Part shown: piece after piece, positions 1 to 5,851 of the stretch
Position numbering within the stretch: the stretch's first letter is position 1
Layout: each line of letters begins with the position of its first letter
Assembly (NCBI GenBank): GCA_028275505.1
Contig: JAPWUP010000001.1
Coordinates: 1 to 64,000, forward strand
Length of the DNA stretch: 64,000 nucleotides
From: Bryobacteraceae bacterium
GTDB taxonomy: Bacteria > Acidobacteriota > Terriglobia > Bryobacterales > Bryobacteraceae
Direction of reading: 5' to 3'
The notes under the pieces: generated by a model
Told to the model about the DNA's origin: nothing
What the model saw: the letters and a program-made list of their open reading frames with translations, nothing else
The model's database searches: none
Program-made: the position numbers and the translations under genes

Positions 1-373
1 ACTGCGCGATGGCCCGCTCCCAGAAGGGCGGCACGCGGCGAGGCACGAACGACCTGCGGCCTCGCCTGACTTCAACCACCACCCCGAGGATCTCATGAGG
101 CTCCAGGGGAGGATCCGCGGCGGGCGCGGCGTCGCCCCAAGTTACGGGGCACCCATTTTCGAATCCCCTCACCCGATGCGTGCAGATTCGCCCGTCCGGT
201 CCGAGGAAGGCAACAAGATCGCCGGGCCTGAGAGCCTGGACGTCGCTGCGCCGGACCACCAGGCAGTCACCCGGCCGCAGCGCGGGAAACATGCTCCCGC
301 CAGTGACGCGAAAGCCGGCAACTTGCTCCGCGGAACCTGGTGCTGTGGCTGGCAAACAGGGGCTGCTTCTCAT
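1..373 (-). CDS. S24/S26-family signal-peptidase-like protease, partial (runs off the left edge)
   Basis: This gene is not in the ORF track because it has no stop inside the window. I translated the minus strand by hand. It reads 'VTGGSMFPALRPGDCLVV' (the Ser-Met nucleophile box and P-x-L-x-x-G-D strand of S24/S26 peptidases), then 'LRPGDLVAF', 'ICTHRV', a 'TWGDAAPAADPPL' stretch and 'ILGVVVEVRRGRRSFVPRR'. These follow the order of the family's fold, with a His in the position where ER-type S26B enzymes have their base. No membrane anchor is visible in the part present. The start is uncertain: ATG at 373 lacks a clear Shine-Dalgarno and the frame stays open upstream, with an in-frame TTG at 400. 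It lies just downstream of the small Cys peptide gene, so it could process that peptide; this is inference. Family assignment is fairly sure, substrate unknown. Confidence 0.72.
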   Translation of the reverse strand, partial: MRSSPCLPATAPGSAEQVAGFRVTGGSMFPALRPGDCLVVRRSDVQALRPGDLVAFLGPDGRICTHRVRGFENGCPVTWGDAAPAADPPLEPHEILGVVVEVRRGRRSFVPRRVPPFWERAIAQ

Positions 374-500
374 CGAGCTGGCAGTCGCCCCCCTGCGCAA
401 AGTTTCTTGCTGCTGGCCAGGCGGTTTAAGGGGGAGGATTGCCGGCTGCGGGGTACCAGACCTGGCCCTCAGCGCTGGCGTGGCGGCCGATCGGCCCCGG

Positions 501-668
501 TCAGGAGTTTTTCTTCACGCGGTTGCACTGCGCGATGCGCGGATGGGTCTTTCCGCAACGGACCGCGGCCGTTTCGAAGACGCGCTCGCACTGGAAGGCG
601 GGCTTGTGGTAGGGCCGGCGCGGCCCACGCGTCGCCGGCACTTTCGGAACGTGTTTCTCGGAGGCCAT
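501..668 (-). CDS. Small Cys-containing peptide, possible RiPP-like precursor
   Basis: A 55-residue product starts at the second ATG of the track ORF, because AAGGAG lies 9 bases before it. The N-terminal half is basic and rich in Pro, Lys and Arg ('KVPATRGPRRPYHKPAF'). The C-terminal half is 'ERVFETAAVRCGKTHPRIAQC' followed by a basic 'NRVKKNS' end, giving three Cys in all. There is no signal peptide or membrane segment. The layout, a charged leader-like half and a short Cys-bearing tail, resembles a ribosomal peptide precursor, and I have an impression (not checked) of similar K-P-x-FET-x-CGK peptides in acidobacteria. It begins 25 bases after the exported beta-propeller gene and is followed by an S24/S26-like protease. 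No modifying enzyme is visible in the window. Coding is supported by the ribosome site and the co-directional neighbours; function is unknown. Confidence 0.6.
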   Translation of the reverse strand: MASEKHVPKVPATRGPRRPYHKPAFQCERVFETAAVRCGKTHPRIAQCNRVKKNS

Positions 669-693
669 ATCGCGAGTCTCCTTGCTGATCATT

Positions 694-2358
694 CTATTGC
701 AGCCCGCTTTGGGTCAGCTTGACGGCGCAGACTTTGTTGGTTCCGTTCTCGGCACAGGCGCTCGATGCGAGCGCGGTCTGGAAGTAGATGTTGCTCGCCT
801 CGGCGGTGGAGCTGCGGTTATCCACGATGATGCCGGCCGAGCCACCGTTGTAAAGGCCGGCTGTTGCGTCGGGCGCGTCACTCGAGCCACTGATGGGGAT
901 ATTCCACATCTGGACCTGATTCGTCCCGCTGAAACCTAGGAACAGCCGGTCTTGGTTATCGCCCCCTTTGAACGTCGTCAGCGGCGAGCACTCGCCAGCC
1001 GCGTTGGCGATCTTGTTGCTGGTCGTGGGCGAATTGTTCTGCCAGACTCCATTCGAGAACGGGAACATGTAGAGCGCAGGATGCTCACTCGATCCCCGCT
1101 TGCCGCACACGTAAAGGTTGCCGCTGGCGCCGCCGGAGGAATAGTGGGTGTCGTCGAACGCTCCGGCGCGGATGACCGTAGTCGAGTTCTGACCGATCGA
1201 GGCAGTCGTCACGTTGCGGCAGCTATAGTCCGTCTCGATCACCAGAGCCGATGAGGAGCCTTGACGCGCGAACCAAAAGACGCGCTGCCGGTCCACGTCC
1301 ACCAAGGCGGCGTCCTGAACGGCCTCCGTGTCTGTGGTGCCAATGGAGTAGGAACCCGCCAAACTGAAGGAGCCGCCGTAGGAATAGCAATACAGTGTGT
1401 TCCCGTCCGAGACAAAAATCCGGTTGGCCCCGGGATCCATCACGGGACTGGTGAGATATCTGTTGGAGTTGACGACCGTCGAGGCAACATTGAAACCACC
1501 ACTGTTGTTGAACACCGGCCAGATGGCGTACAGCTTCCCATCGTCCGCCCCGACGAAGGCGACGTTGTTCCAGTAATCCACGAAGGGCGACGAGCGCTGG
1601 TTGCCCGCCGTCGAATACTGCACGCTGCGCACGGAAGAGCCCCCGGGGCCGGGAGTGGCGGGGATTCCAATGGTACCCTGCCCCGCTACCCACTTGAGCA
1701 CGTGGAAGTAAGCGCCGCCGTTACCCTTGTTCCGGTTCTCGACGAACGCCACCTCCTTCCCGTCGAGCGAGAGCACCGGAGACGTCCTCACTACGTCCGG
1801 CGTGTTGTCGTCGTCGCCCACATAGTAAGCCCACATCGTCTTGGGAACCGGCGCCGAGCAGGTGGTGTAGAGATTGTTGAACGCCACGATGTTCGCCTGG
1901 CCGGTGGCCGAACCCGCCCGGATGCCAAAGACCACAAAATCATTGGCACAATCCGGGTTGGTGAAGCTCGCCCCCCACATCGCCGGGAAGTGCTCCTTGG
2001 GCACTGGGCTCGAAGTATCCACATCCCCCAGCGACACCGCCCAGTCGCGCTTCAACGTGACCGAATCGCGCCGCCACGGCTGCCTCCCCGGCGCCGAAGC
2101 CGACGCCAAGGCGCCGATCACGTTGCGCTGCACCCAGGCCGCCGCCAGCCGCGGATCGCGCTGGAGCTGACTCAGCGTCGCGGCCCGGAACGAAGCGTTC
2201 CCGTAAGCCAGATACCTGTGGCTCCAGTCGCGAACAATCGGGAAACGCGGCGGCATCGCGCCCTGTCCCGGCGCCTGCGCCGTCACCAGAATAATCCCCG
2301 CCGCAAGAACCACTGCTACCGGAATGAATCCGACCCACTTCGCATGCCCGCTGCTCAT
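694..2358 (-). CDS. Secreted beta-propeller-like protein of unknown function
   Basis: The product is 554 residues when started at ATG 2358, where GGGAGG sits 5 bases upstream; the track start 75 bases earlier has no such site. Residues 1-30 form a signal peptide with core 'FIPVAVVLAAGIILVTA'. The rest is rich in Gly, Ser, Asn and aromatic residues and contains repeated strands of the type 'SPVLSLDGKEVAFVEN', 'FVGADDGKLYAIWPV' and 'RIFVSDGNTLYCYSY', as in WD40/PQQ-like propellers. It has several Cys that could form disulfides outside the cytoplasm. No catalytic motif is recognisable. It is the first gene of a short unit with the small Cys peptide and the S24/S26 protease, and a good promoter lies about 100 bases upstream. 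It could equally be a surface-binding or scaffold protein. Confidence 0.8.
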   Translation of the reverse strand: MSSGHAKWVGFIPVAVVLAAGIILVTAQAPGQGAMPPRFPIVRDWSHRYLAYGNASFRAATLSQLQRDPRLAAAWVQRNVIGALASASAPGRQPWRRDSVTLKRDWAVSLGDVDTSSPVPKEHFPAMWGASFTNPDCANDFVVFGIRAGSATGQANIVAFNNLYTTCSAPVPKTMWAYYVGDDDNTPDVVRTSPVLSLDGKEVAFVENRNKGNGGAYFHVLKWVAGQGTIGIPATPGPGGSSVRSVQYSTAGNQRSSPFVDYWNNVAFVGADDGKLYAIWPVFNNSGGFNVASTVVNSNRYLTSPVMDPGANRIFVSDGNTLYCYSYGGSFSLAGSYSIGTTDTEAVQDAALVDVDRQRVFWFARQGSSSALVIETDYSCRNVTTASIGQNSTTVIRAGAFDDTHYSSGGASGNLYVCGKRGSSEHPALYMFPFSNGVWQNNSPTTSNKIANAAGECSPLTTFKGGDNQDRLFLGFSGTNQVQMWNIPISGSSDAPDATAGLYNGGSAGIIVDNRSSTAEASNIYFQTALASSACAENGTNKVCAVKLTQSGLQ

Positions 2359-2464
2359 CTCGACCTCCCGGTTTCCTGTCCGTGCTTCGCTGTGGCTCAA
2401 TCGCAAGAACGAATGTCTTACGATGTCCAACAAAAATCGCTCTGCCGCGGTGCGCTCAAGTTAC

Positions 2465-2493
2465 AATTTATCCCTGCTTTTCTGCTTTTTCAA
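2465..2493 (-). promoter_or_regulatory. Sigma-70-type promoter for the beta-propeller/small-peptide unit
   Basis: On the minus strand, TTGAAA (2493-2488) and TAAATT (2470-2465) are separated by exactly 17 bases, in an AT-rich island between divergent genes. It would give a leader of about 100 bases before the start at 2358. The divergent plus-strand gene has only a lone -10-like TAAAAT at 2518-2523 with no good -35. Confidence 0.45.
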
Positions 2494-2541
2494 TCCCTAA
2501 TTTGAGGGTGGAAACGATAAAATAACACGCGAGGTTCGCAA

Positions 2542-3678
2542 GTGCGAGACGCAGCGTTTCTGCTCCGCGCGCTGCTCGCCGTGGCCGTCGCCGGCGGCGG
2601 GCTCTGGCTCGCCCTGCGCCCGCCAGAGACCTACCCCGACCTCACGGAACAGCCCGCCACACAAGCCGAAGCTCTCGCACGGCGCCTGCTGCGCTCCGAC
2701 CCCGCCAATCCCTACCGCTGGTGCGATCTCGGCGAAGCCCTCGCCGAGACCGGCAAGATCGCCGAAGCCCGCCTCTGCTTCCGGCGCGCCGTCGAGCTCG
2801 GTCCCAACATTCCGCCCGTGTTGATGCGCGCTGCGGGATTTCACATCCGCGTCGGCGAAGCCCGCACTGCCCTGCCCCACATGCTTCGCATCCTCGAGCT
2901 GGTCCCCGACTATGACGCGATCATCTTCTACTACACCGACCGCCTGATTCCCTTCGATGAGCTGCTGCCCCAGCTCGCCAGGAACCCGCGCGCCGCCCGC
3001 TCGCATTTCCGCTTCCTTCTGCAAAGCGGCGATGCCGGTCGCGCCCGCGCCGCCTGGCACTCCCTCTGCGAGCACCGCCTCGCCAACGACGAGCTGGCGG
3101 CCGCCTATCTGGAGCTGCTTCTGCGCAAGGCCGAGTACCATGAGGCGCTCGCAACCTGGGTTGCCTGGCTGGGGCCGCGGGCCGGCGATTATCCCGTGCG
3201 CAACCTGGTTTACAACGGCAGCTTTGAAAACGAGCCGAGCGGCTCGCCGCTGGACTGGCGCATCCGCCCGCTGGAAGGCGTGCAGGCGGTTCGCGATCCG
3301 GCCCGGGCGCGGGAGGGTCGGGCATCGCTCAAGCTGAGCTTTCCCGGCACGGCCAATTTCGATTACTCGCACGTCTCGCAACTGGTGGTTGTGCCCGCCG
3401 GGCGCTACCGTCTGTCCGCGTGGATTGCTTCGCAGGATCTGACGACCGATCAGGGCCTTTTTCTGCGCCTCAGCGAAACCGGCAGCGGCAACCGCGTCCT
3501 CGCCGAGACTCAGCACATCACGGGAACCACCGACTGGCAATTCGTGGAAGCAGAAGTCGTCGCGCCGCGCACCCTGCTTGCCGCCATCCAGCTTTGCCGC
3601 CGCCCGTCCCGCAAGTTCGACAACAAGATCCGTGGCGCCGCCTGGGTGGACGCGGTCAGGCTCGAGCGGCGCCCGTAG
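2542..3678 (+). CDS. Membrane-anchored TPR protein with C-terminal carbohydrate-binding-like domain
   Basis: The 378-residue product starts at GTG with GAGG 8 bases upstream. An N-terminal hydrophobic segment ('LLRALLAVAVAGGGLWLAL', about residues 7-26) suggests export or anchoring. Residues about 40-200 are Ala/Leu/Arg-rich helical repeats of tetratricopeptide type ('NPYRWCDLGEALAETGKIAEA'). From about residue 225 a beta-rich domain follows: 'NLVYNGSFENEPSG', 'GRASLKLSFPG', 'VPAGRYRLSAWI'. The NGSFE opening is typical of CBM4/9-like and related sugar-binding modules. The 3' end overlaps the convergent O-antigen ligase gene by 23 bases. TPR-plus-ligase pairs are common in exopolysaccharide regions, so a role in handling extracellular glycan is plausible. 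Substrate unknown. Confidence 0.75.
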   Translation: MRDAAFLLRALLAVAVAGGGLWLALRPPETYPDLTEQPATQAEALARRLLRSDPANPYRWCDLGEALAETGKIAEARLCFRRAVELGPNIPPVLMRAAGFHIRVGEARTALPHMLRILELVPDYDAIIFYYTDRLIPFDELLPQLARNPRAARSHFRFLLQSGDAGRARAAWHSLCEHRLANDELAAAYLELLLRKAEYHEALATWVAWLGPRAGDYPVRNLVYNGSFENEPSGSPLDWRIRPLEGVQAVRDPARAREGRASLKLSFPGTANFDYSHVSQLVVVPAGRYRLSAWIASQDLTTDQGLFLRLSETGSGNRVLAETQHITGTTDWQFVEAEVVAPRTLLAAIQLCRRPSRKFDNKIRGAAWVDAVRLERRP

Positions 3679-4984
3679 ACACGGAACGGGCGATCGCGAT
3701 CCCTGCTACCCAGGCCAGTGTCATTGCATTCGCCGGAATGTAAAGGTTGAAGTCCACGAAACTGTGCAGGGCCAGCGCCGACAGGCCGCCCAGCGCGCCC
3801 AGCGCCCGCCAGCGCTCCTCCTCCCAGTGACTGCGGCGCGCGGCTCGCCAGGCCGACCGCAGGCAAAGCGCAGCGAGGGTCACGACGACAGCCAGCCCGA
3901 AAACGCCGAGCTCGGCCGCCAACTGCAAATAGTCGTTGTGGGCGAAATCCACCGTGTACAAAGGCGCCGCGAGCTTGTGCCGCATGAGCGCCGATTCGTA
4001 CGCGCCCAGGCCGCTGCCAGCCACAGGCTGCGCCCGCACCAGCTCGAGCGTATCGCGCCAGATCTGAATGCGGACGTCGGCCGAGATTTCCTCCGTGGCG
4101 GCCATGTGGCCGAAGCGCTCGATCAGCTTGTCCGGGGGCAAGAAGATGAAAGCGAGGAGCACGAGCAAGCCGATGAGTGCCGGTCCCAGCCGGCGTCTCC
4201 ATGCGGGCGCTTCGCCGCTGCCCAGCGCGGCCGCCCCCATGATGAACATCGAGACCAGAGCGGCCACGAAACCCATCCGCGAGAACGAGTGCAGAATCGC
4301 CAGCAGGATCAGGGCGGCGATCGTGAACAGGCCGCAGGCCGCCAGCGCCATGCGCAGGCTTACGCCGTGGCGCGATCGCCCGCGCCCGAGAACCGCTACG
4401 CCGTAAGCCAGCGCGAACGGCAGGCACAGCTCGAGAAAGCCGCAGTAGTGGTTGCGGTTGACCCAAGTTCCCGTGGCTATGCGATCGCCGCCGGGCGCAT
4501 ACGCCTGAATGAGCCCCAGAACCGCCTCGAAGCCTGCAAGGATCAGCAGGGGCCACGCGACAGCCCACGGATAGTCATCGAGCCGCCCGGCCAGATCCGC
4601 CATGAGCCAGAAAACGAGGATGCAGCCCGCCAGCCCGATCACCTTTTCCAGGGTTGCCGCGGGCTTGGCGCTCAACGCGGCCCAGCTCCACGGTCCCGCG
4701 ATGGCGGAGAGGCCATCCAGCGCCGCGGCGCGCTCGGGCGCCAGCAGCCTGACAAGGGCTTTGGGCAAAGGCAGCAAGGCGAGGCACGCCCACGCCAAGA
4801 GGCTCAGAGGCAGCCAAGTTGTCCATCCACGCGGCCACGGCGATCGCGCGCGAGACCAGCACAGGATTCCGCACAATCCGACCGCGACCAGCGAGACGCC
4901 CCAGTCGTTGGGTTCAACGCCCGCATCATGCAAGGCCGCATAGCCGAGGGCCAGCGAGAGGAGGACGACACAAGCAGCGTTCAC
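3656..4984 (-). CDS. O-antigen ligase/polymerase family (Wzy_C) membrane protein
   Basis: The 442-residue product starts at GTG and has about 10-12 hydrophobic segments. The large periplasmic loop and Wzy_C signature are clear: 'PVAGSGLGAYESALMRHKL', then 'DFAHNDYLQLAAELGVFGL'. The G-x-G-x-x-x-Y-x-S and H-N-D-Y-L-Q elements are the ones conserved in WaaL/Wzy proteins, which join undecaprenyl-linked glycans to acceptors or to each other outside the inner membrane. A second protein of the same family is at 24.7-26.1 kb, so one may polymerise and the other ligate, or this one may act on a different glycan or on protein. Family sure; exact reaction not decidable from sequence. Confidence 0.88.
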   Translation of the reverse strand: MNAACVVLLSLALGYAALHDAGVEPNDWGVSLVAVGLCGILCWSRARSPWPRGWTTWLPLSLLAWACLALLPLPKALVRLLAPERAAALDGLSAIAGPWSWAALSAKPAATLEKVIGLAGCILVFWLMADLAGRLDDYPWAVAWPLLILAGFEAVLGLIQAYAPGGDRIATGTWVNRNHYCGFLELCLPFALAYGVAVLGRGRSRHGVSLRMALAACGLFTIAALILLAILHSFSRMGFVAALVSMFIMGAAALGSGEAPAWRRRLGPALIGLLVLLAFIFLPPDKLIERFGHMAATEEISADVRIQIWRDTLELVRAQPVAGSGLGAYESALMRHKLAAPLYTVDFAHNDYLQLAAELGVFGLAVVVTLAALCLRSAWRAARRSHWEEERWRALGALGGLSALALHSFVDFNLYIPANAMTLAWVAGIAIARSVSTGAARA

Positions 4985-5062
4985 TGAGGAACTGGATCAG
5001 AGGGCGGCAGAGGAGCGGCGGCCCAGGATTCCCGCCCCGGGCCGCCTTCAGAACTTTTCCGG

Positions 5063-5851
5063 TCAGGCCGCCTTGCGATAGCGCCGCAGGCAAAGCAGGC
5101 CGGCGAGGCCGAGGCCAATCAGCGCAGCGGTGGCCGGCTCGGGAACCAGGGACGCGCCGGCGCTGGCCGTGACCAACTGGCCATCAATCCAAATCCAATA
5201 AGTTCCCCACCCGAACGGATAATCTTGGTGCGTGATCCACCACAAGGCATAGGGCAAATCGGCAGGATCGGATACCGAGAACGCGGCCCCCAGTCCCGTG
5301 AACCAGAGACGGTTCACGAGAACGCTGTCATTGCCCGGATTGGACTCGCCGTACCAGATGTCGTCCGCGGTGCCGGGGATGCCGTCCGGCCCGTAGTAAT
5401 GCCCGACCAGATCATACCCGTACGCCTGCCCGGCAAAGCTGAAGGTATCGGGACTGCCGAAGAAGTTTTCGTAATACCACAGATCGCGAAGCCGGAACGT
5501 CTTCCCGCCGCCGTCCAAATACAGCCCGAACAACAGCGCGTTGCCGTACTCGCCTTCGTACCCGGGAGGCGGCGGCGCCTGGCCCCGCCACGATTCGAAG
5601 TCGGTAACTACTACGTCTCCCGGATAAAAGGAGTAAGTCCGCTGGTAGTAAGACGGGCTACCCGGCGTACCCCACGAGCTGGCGCCGGTTTGCAAAGCCG
5701 CAATCGCGTTTTGCGCGTAATCGTACCAGCTCGGCGAGTACCACGGGTTGGGCGCGATCGAGGGATAGACGTACATGATCGGCCCGGAGATCAGCAACGC
5801 GGAAAAGATCAGGCCTGCCAGTGCGAGCCGGAATATGCGCAGTCCGAACAT
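5063..5851 (-). CDS. PEP-CTERM sorting-domain exported protein
   Basis: The 262-residue product has an N-terminal signal peptide ('LALAGLIFSALLISG') and a C-terminal 'VPEPATAALIGLGLAGLLCLRRYRKAA' segment: the PEP motif, a membrane helix and an Arg-rich tail. This is the exosortase/PEP-CTERM sorting signal. The mature region is rich in Tyr, Trp, Gly and Asp with no enzyme motif; it contains 'GPDGIPGTADDIWYGE', reminiscent of calcium-binding Asp-rich loops. ATG at 5851 is supported by GGAGG 5 bases upstream. No exosortase (EpsH/XrtA) gene is visible in this window. PEP-CTERM proteins typically accompany exopolysaccharide loci, as here. Specific role unknown. Confidence 0.9.
   Translation of the reverse strand: MFGLRIFRLALAGLIFSALLISGPIMYVYPSIAPNPWYSPSWYDYAQNAIAALQTGASSWGTPGSPSYYQRTYSFYPGDVVVTDFESWRGQAPPPPGYEGEYGNALLFGLYLDGGGKTFRLRDLWYYENFFGSPDTFSFAGQAYGYDLVGHYYGPDGIPGTADDIWYGESNPGNDSVLVNRLWFTGLGAAFSVSDPADLPYALWWITHQDYPFGWGTYWIWIDGQLVTASAGASLVPEPATAALIGLGLAGLLCLRRYRKAA

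Follow-up and report, generated by a model that had tools for sequence, protein, structure and literature searches.

A 55-residue cysteine peptide encoded at the left end of the acidobacterial DNA analysed here (the window, 64,000 nucleotides) is very probably the precursor from which a bacterial modified peptide of a new type is made, and we propose it as the substrate for a kinase/PqqD/radical SAM cassette found in at least four phyla. The cassette unites tailoring genes of lasso clusters with radical SAM chemistry and an exported beta-propeller, which makes its chemistry and role directly testable; its owners include two cultured species, Thermomonas beijingensis and T. flagellata. An earlier note on this DNA, made from the sequence alone, had suspected an unrecognised RiPP-like peptide system. 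The linkage to PqqD and radical SAM/SPASM genes and the recurrence at 72 loci support that suspicion, and neither outcome that would have undone it—a peptide not conserved among relatives, or an unrelated gene always following it—was met.

Gene Layout and the Overlapping Contig

Three genes lie at the left end of the window, co-directional as the earlier note had described and all on the minus strand: a propeller, the peptide, and a truncated protease. The propeller gene (694–2358, ATG at 2358, stop at 694–696) encodes 554 residues beginning with a signal sequence, and its stop is 25 bases from the peptide start. The peptide gene occupies 501–668 (ATG at 668, stop at 501–503), and its reportedly strong ribosome site can be read directly as an AAGGAG Shine-Dalgarno sequence at 683–678. 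The promoter claimed in front of the genes is also there, in the form of one sigma70-like site before the propeller (2465–2493, minus strand; first hexamer at 2493, second ending at 2465), against 0.1 expected in shuffles. The protease gene (2–373 from an ATG, or 2–400 from an alternative TTG) does leave the window; position 1 is the end of the contig (C96), where the reading frame is cut and its 3' part lost. The genes next to the cassette, at 2542–5851, encode a TPR protein, an O-antigen-ligase-like protein (Wzy_C), and also a PEP-CTERM protein; they hint that the surroundings serve exosortase or surface-polysaccharide functions.

The genes left of position 1 in the window strain were not read directly; they are inferred by orthology with contig C185 of the same assembly (locus L005), which matches window positions 499–5454 with 92% identity over 5 kb. 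Identity reaches 97–100% in most of the sequence flanking the propeller and 100% over 2800–4500, and on this sequence evidence C185 most likely represents the same locus in a variant strain. Its gene order is propeller, peptide, second propeller, protease, HprK-like kinase, PqqD protein, radical SAM/SPASM enzyme (rSAM), and NTP_transf_5 nucleotidyltransferase, the last four frames overlapping or standing close together. The peptide there is 84% identical to that of the window, the protease allele is complete (L005 6822–7265), and the second propeller, between peptide and protease, is absent from that place in the window allele. The earlier note had proposed looking left of position 1 for PqqD, radical SAM, or lasso-type genes: the first two are present on the overlapping contig, whereas lasso-type genes are absent from the cassette, despite a lasso-like leader. 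Peptide matches occur on three contigs of this genome (C96, C185, and C108), and the same genome holds a second complete cassette with no propeller adjoining (L259, G000:C108, 11356–15398).

The Probable Precursor Peptide

The window peptide, MASEKHVPKVPATRGPRRPYHKPAFQCERVFETAAVRCGKTHPRIAQCNRVKKNS, consists of a leader (RPYHKPAF..E..FET.A) followed by Cys38-Gly-Lys..Cys48..Ser55. Its predicted core, residues 38–55 (CGK...C...S; 504–557, minus strand), is inferred from the alignment and from allele comparison. Counting from the first tail Cys as position 0 in 83 distinct sequences, Tyr −18, Pro −15, Glu −6, Ala −3, and Cys 0 are invariant, and Glu/Asp −10, Phe/Tyr −7, Thr/Ser −5, and Leu/Val −2 are nearly so; at position −1, 76 of the 83 have Ser, Ala, or Thr, and the window peptide has Arg. 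The tail is basic and usually 18 residues long, with the second Cys at +10. Exactly two tail Cys are found in 81/83 peptides (the second is missing in 2), a C-terminal Ser is found in all 83, and the core consensus across phyla, CGKxxxTQxxCxxNRKNS, is fairly uniform. A lasso-type leader motif, YxxPx[L/F], is also recognizable, with Y and P in 83/83 and F, Y, V, or L at the sixth position. The scan that gathered these peptides was partly selected on the FETMAL motif, which inflates the conservation of that stretch but not that of the C-terminal Ser, the second Cys, or the neighbouring genes.

A short gene-encoded precursor with a conserved leader beside tailoring genes meets one criterion for a RiPP. 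No model covering the peptide was found in Pfam or NCBIfam, and word searches of the literature, which did not reach subscription journals, found no description of the cassette. A wider superfamily occurs in the phylum (L158–L170; L058–L080), of the form KKPYEKPAIIHTEKIEARAVSCxK..C..TS; these peptides have 37–57 residues, are sometimes paired, and end in Ser, the only exception seen being L078 (Gln). Many lie beside PqqD, rSAM, and HprK-like kinase genes, mostly without an S26 protease or a propeller. At one locus (L256, G530:C268; 6257–6481 and 9639–9821) two peptides have identical C-terminal parts, FETSALSCGKVQTTQSGCHSNRKTS, and different N-terminal leaders.

Proteins Encoded beside the Peptide

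The truncated protease scores 24.6 bits against Pfam Peptidase_S24 (cut-off 23.3). Its best NCBIfam match is TIGR02228, the archaeal-type signal peptidase I, at 46.9 bits (below the cut-off of 51.85), and whole-protein scores to signal peptidase models are below cut-off. The catalytic Ser (G.SM.P) and His (HR) are kept in 58/58 relatives and the downstream Asp positions in 58/58 and 56/58, while a membrane helix is absent from nearly all. From these features of Pfam and NCBIfam matches and relatives, the enzyme looks like a soluble cytosolic protease of the S26B signal-peptidase-like, Ser/His type, and is a probable leader peptidase; within the S24/S26 label given earlier, the kind appears to be S26B rather than LexA-type S24.

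Walker A, His, and Asp-Glu motifs are present in 53/53 kinase sequences, and the structural model of the kinase (pLDDT 94) has the PEPCK/HPr-kinase fold, matching PEP carboxykinase and HPr kinase; its best NCBIfam match is ScmC, at 47 bits with a cut-off of 125. The PqqD protein reaches 61 bits against Pfam PqqD (cut-off 23.4), fulfilling the RRE/PqqD criterion, and 22 bits against the NCBIfam equivalog (cut-off 46). In the rSAM, the CxxxCxxC and SPASM Cys are kept in 54–55 of 55 sequences. NCBIfam matches it best to the mycofactocin maturase (141 bits, cut-off 265) and also to PqqE (108 bits, cut-off 381), and its nearest solved relatives by profile search are SkfB, PqqE, 5v1q, and 5wgg, the last two of which we take to be SuiB and CteB.

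The propeller carries a hydrophobic signal sequence at its N-terminus. Two Cys (C137, C167) are conserved in it, as is its C-terminus, of CAVKLTQS.LQ type, and AlphaFold2 predicts an all-beta propeller (pLDDT 80, pTM 0.84). Pfam, which has no model for it, barely detects it and recognises no enzyme domain; its PDB fold matches are generic only, and include the methylamine dehydrogenase heavy chain and BamB.

Distribution and Gene Co-occurrence

A scan of 85,000 named genomes with the FETMAL subset of the peptide alignment yielded 72 loci in four phyla—mostly in Acidobacteriota, with others in Lysobacterales, Burkholderiales, Thermomonas, Myxococcota, and one Binatota; the two cultured species are among the Pseudomonadota carriers. 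The small-ORF search near S24 genes that the earlier note had suggested is answered by this result, for FETMAL-C type peptides lie mostly beside S24/S26 genes at these loci. The usual order is propeller, peptide, protease, kinase, PqqD, and rSAM; at some loci the rSAM is followed by a propeller or a nucleotidyltransferase. All peptide matches with E < 0.001 lie beside S24/S26, kinase, PqqD, and rSAM genes, also in other families and classes; weak single-sequence matches with E > 0.001 (L013–L034) had no cassette genes adjoining where checked.

Among the 40 loci flanked by 6 kb or more on each side, neighbours include S24 (30), rSAM (31), HprK (28), PqqD (27), and propeller (24) genes; an rSAM or kinase is present in 31/40, and at least one of rSAM, kinase, and propeller in 36/40. 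The propeller is not obligatory, since 19 of 55 rSAM-bearing loci lack one within 6 kb. About ten orphan peptides without enzymes sit beside a propeller, in genomes that mostly hold a kinase elsewhere, and these pairs tie the propeller to the peptide and not only to the enzymes. Several genomes hold two or three peptides and several propellers.

Within 150 genomes of the host family, separate peptide and kinase (HprK) profile searches matched the identical six genomes. For independent genomes the chance of this coincidence would be about 1 in 1.4e10, but genomes of one family are not independent; moreover, the profiles included members from some of the six, so the result describes distribution rather than detection. 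The propeller profile matched three of the same 150 genomes, two of them also with the peptide. One genome (G553) has a propeller with no peptide detected, and another (G499) a peptide with no kinase detected. For peptide loci without HprK nearby, the kinase is elsewhere in the genome in 12/13 cases; in another seven genomes the same holds in 7/7, among them one (L113) with a nearby copy as well. No exporter gene shared across loci was found: ABC genes lie near 13 loci and are of mixed types, and the cassette of this genome has no exporter gene. Upstream of cassettes mostly without a propeller (L124, L125, L127, L129, L132, and L144) are ABC transporter genes with an NTP_transf_5 gene, a possible alternative export module.

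Allelic Diversity of Peptide and Propeller

Comparison of the two strain-variant contigs places a hypervariable part of the propeller gene at window positions 800–1500 (minus strand; residues ~290–520), where DNA identity between alleles is 55–79% (54–79% over residues ~290–520) and that of the flanks mostly 97–100%. The middle of the propeller is a sharply bounded diversity island between these contigs. In the peptide, residues 1–40 differ by 2 non-synonymous and 7 synonymous changes and residues 41–55 by 7 non-synonymous and 3 synonymous changes, with Cys48 and Ser55 kept. As far as a sequence comparison of one strain pair with small counts allows, this suggests that the peptide core and the propeller may diversify in linked fashion. 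Gene conversion from the second propeller was rejected as the sole cause; only a short segment near residues 290–343 is closer to that propeller than to the first one.

Proposed Pathway and Related Systems

On the joint evidence, we judge it probable, with considerable room for doubt, that the peptide serves as a RiPP-type precursor: PqqD would bind it, the rSAM modify it, the kinase phosphorylate its Ser, and the protease trim it, with the propeller as its partner. Every chemical step of this pathway is inferred, as are the cleavage site, export, and binding to the propeller; what the analysis itself establishes is genomic, namely which genes are present, how they are conserved and co-occur, which catalytic residues are kept, and which folds are predicted. 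As RiPP recognition element, the PqqD protein would bind the leader motif K-P-Y-x-K-P-x-F-x-x-E-x-V-F-E-T and present the peptide to the rSAM/SPASM enzyme, which may modify the core; the likeliest sites there are the two conserved Cys (a thioether or similar). The HprK-like kinase would phosphorylate the invariant C-terminal Ser; known lasso kinases phosphorylate this residue, though BsfK acts on Ser3 instead (PMC10368454). Leader removal would fall to the soluble Ser/His S26-type protease; a cut between A-L-[S/A/T] and Cys is the most likely, and the product would then have about 18 residues (CGK...C...S). Signal-peptidase-like enzymes favour small residues at −3 and −1, hence the placement of the putative cleavage before the first Cys; the site remains uncertain because the window peptide has Arg at −1, which weakens the proposed rule. 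The beta subunit of quinohemoprotein amine dehydrogenase (QHNDH) is a propeller, and the mature peptide might join the co-encoded, presumably Sec-exported propeller in the manner of the qhp gamma subunit.

In the qhp operon, a radical SAM enzyme crosslinks a small, leader-bearing Cys peptide in the cytoplasm, and a dedicated cytosolic protease removes the leader before export (PMC7876137). The operon shows that an architecture of such a peptide and an exported propeller exists. It differs in its unrelated peptide and protease and in its haem subunit, flavoprotein, and ABC exporter (PMC7876137), and it is not known to include a PqqD-type protein or HprK-like kinase. The comparison with QHNDH-type systems rests on peptide–propeller gene linkage only, the propeller matches being generic.

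SynChlorMet cassettes (NCBIfam ScmC/D/E/F) resemble this one in an HprK-like ScmC, a PqqD-like ScmD, and a PqqE-like rSAM, but have two rSAM models, and all scores are below cut-offs (ScmC 47/125, ScmD 21/100, ScmE/F 119/400 and 80/400 bits); we know of no S26 protease or propeller in them. In PQQ and mycofactocin biosynthesis, too, a PqqD-type chaperone and a SPASM rSAM work on a short peptide of ribosomal origin; however, the cassette is far below their equivalog cut-offs, and to our knowledge neither involves a kinase. The curated GeoRSP cut-offs are not reached either. Sactipeptide-type maturases (SkfB, CteB) are among the closest solved relatives of the rSAM by profile, but sactipeptide systems differ in leader, accessory enzymes, and propeller, and a thioether is only inferred here. 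Since the cassette is not a lasso cluster (see below), stays below curated cut-offs, and yielded no known peptide family or description, we class it as a radical SAM RiPP-like system. The most complete version of the proposal—a new RiPP class with a lasso-type leader, an rSAM, and a C-terminal-Ser kinase, whose S26B-released, phosphorylated, Cys-crosslinked 18-mer would be a subunit or ligand of the propeller and co-diversify with it—is tentative and, taken whole, doubtful.

Alternative Explanations

Leaving biosynthesis unchanged, the mature peptide may be a diversifying signal or antagonist, with the propeller as receptor, decoy, or immunity protein. The peptide core and propeller residues ~290–520, far more diverged than their 97–100% flanks, would fit such a role, as would the multiple peptides and propellers of several genomes and the ABC transporter near some propeller-less clusters; but the divergence comes from a single strain pair with small counts, and a short basic core that is fairly uniform across phyla is unlike typical fast-evolving bacteriocins, so we hold this role possible but unlikely. 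We think it less likely still that a small redox cofactor is built on the peptide as scaffold, which is then degraded, by PQQ/mycofactocin logic, to a product used by propellers. A conserved C-terminal Ser with a dedicated kinase is hard to square with a degraded scaffold, the scores fall below every equivalog cut-off, and the propeller has no recognised enzyme domain, even though PqqD and a SPASM enzyme are the PQQ/mycofactocin toolkit, the mycofactocin maturase is the best NCBIfam match of the rSAM (141 bits), and the propeller shows PQQ-like repeat motifs on visual inspection and weakly matches a pyrrolo-quinoline-quinone propeller in a PDB profile search (3hxj, E 0.06). That the ORF is a chance frame or an unrelated small protein, for which only the lack of a Pfam or NCBIfam match speaks, we consider practically inconceivable; a chance ORF is refuted by protein-level conservation across phyla with fixed motifs and neighbours.

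A lasso peptide cluster, intact or decayed, would account for several of the same parts. Lasso clusters are likewise known to contain a YxxPxF/L leader, a PqqD-type RRE, an HprK-like kinase, and a nucleotidyltransferase (PMC10368454), the last two together in bsf of Bradymonas sediminis (PMC10368454) and in paeninodin. The lasso YxxPxL motif lies at −17 to −12 of the core, and the Tyr-to-core spacing of our peptide agrees with this position (PMC10368454). The likeness extends to a nearly equal spacing between leader motif and core, a separate RRE, and a C-terminal Ser, as in the classic phosphorylated members. Unlike lasso clusters, the cassette has no transglutaminase-like B2 protease, Asn-synthetase-like cyclase, or ring acceptor; it has instead a constant rSAM/SPASM enzyme, an S26-type protease, and a secreted propeller. 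The lasso protease (PF13471) is absent from this genome and, where relatives have it, lies outside the cassette, the Asn synthetases (PF00733) of this genome are on other contigs, and Asp/Glu at ring positions 7–9 occurs in only 4–11 of 83 peptides with any core start tried. With its defining protease, in-cluster cyclase, and ring acceptor not met, lasso identity was rejected, and we regard it as very improbable. An Asn-synthetase-like cyclase lies near the cassette in only one of the relatives tested (G020), within a separate lasso cluster. That cluster (L146/L041, G020:C531, 1771–6687; PqqD, PF13471, HprK-like, cyclase) is directly upstream of the cassette, whose own kinase has an in-frame TGA.
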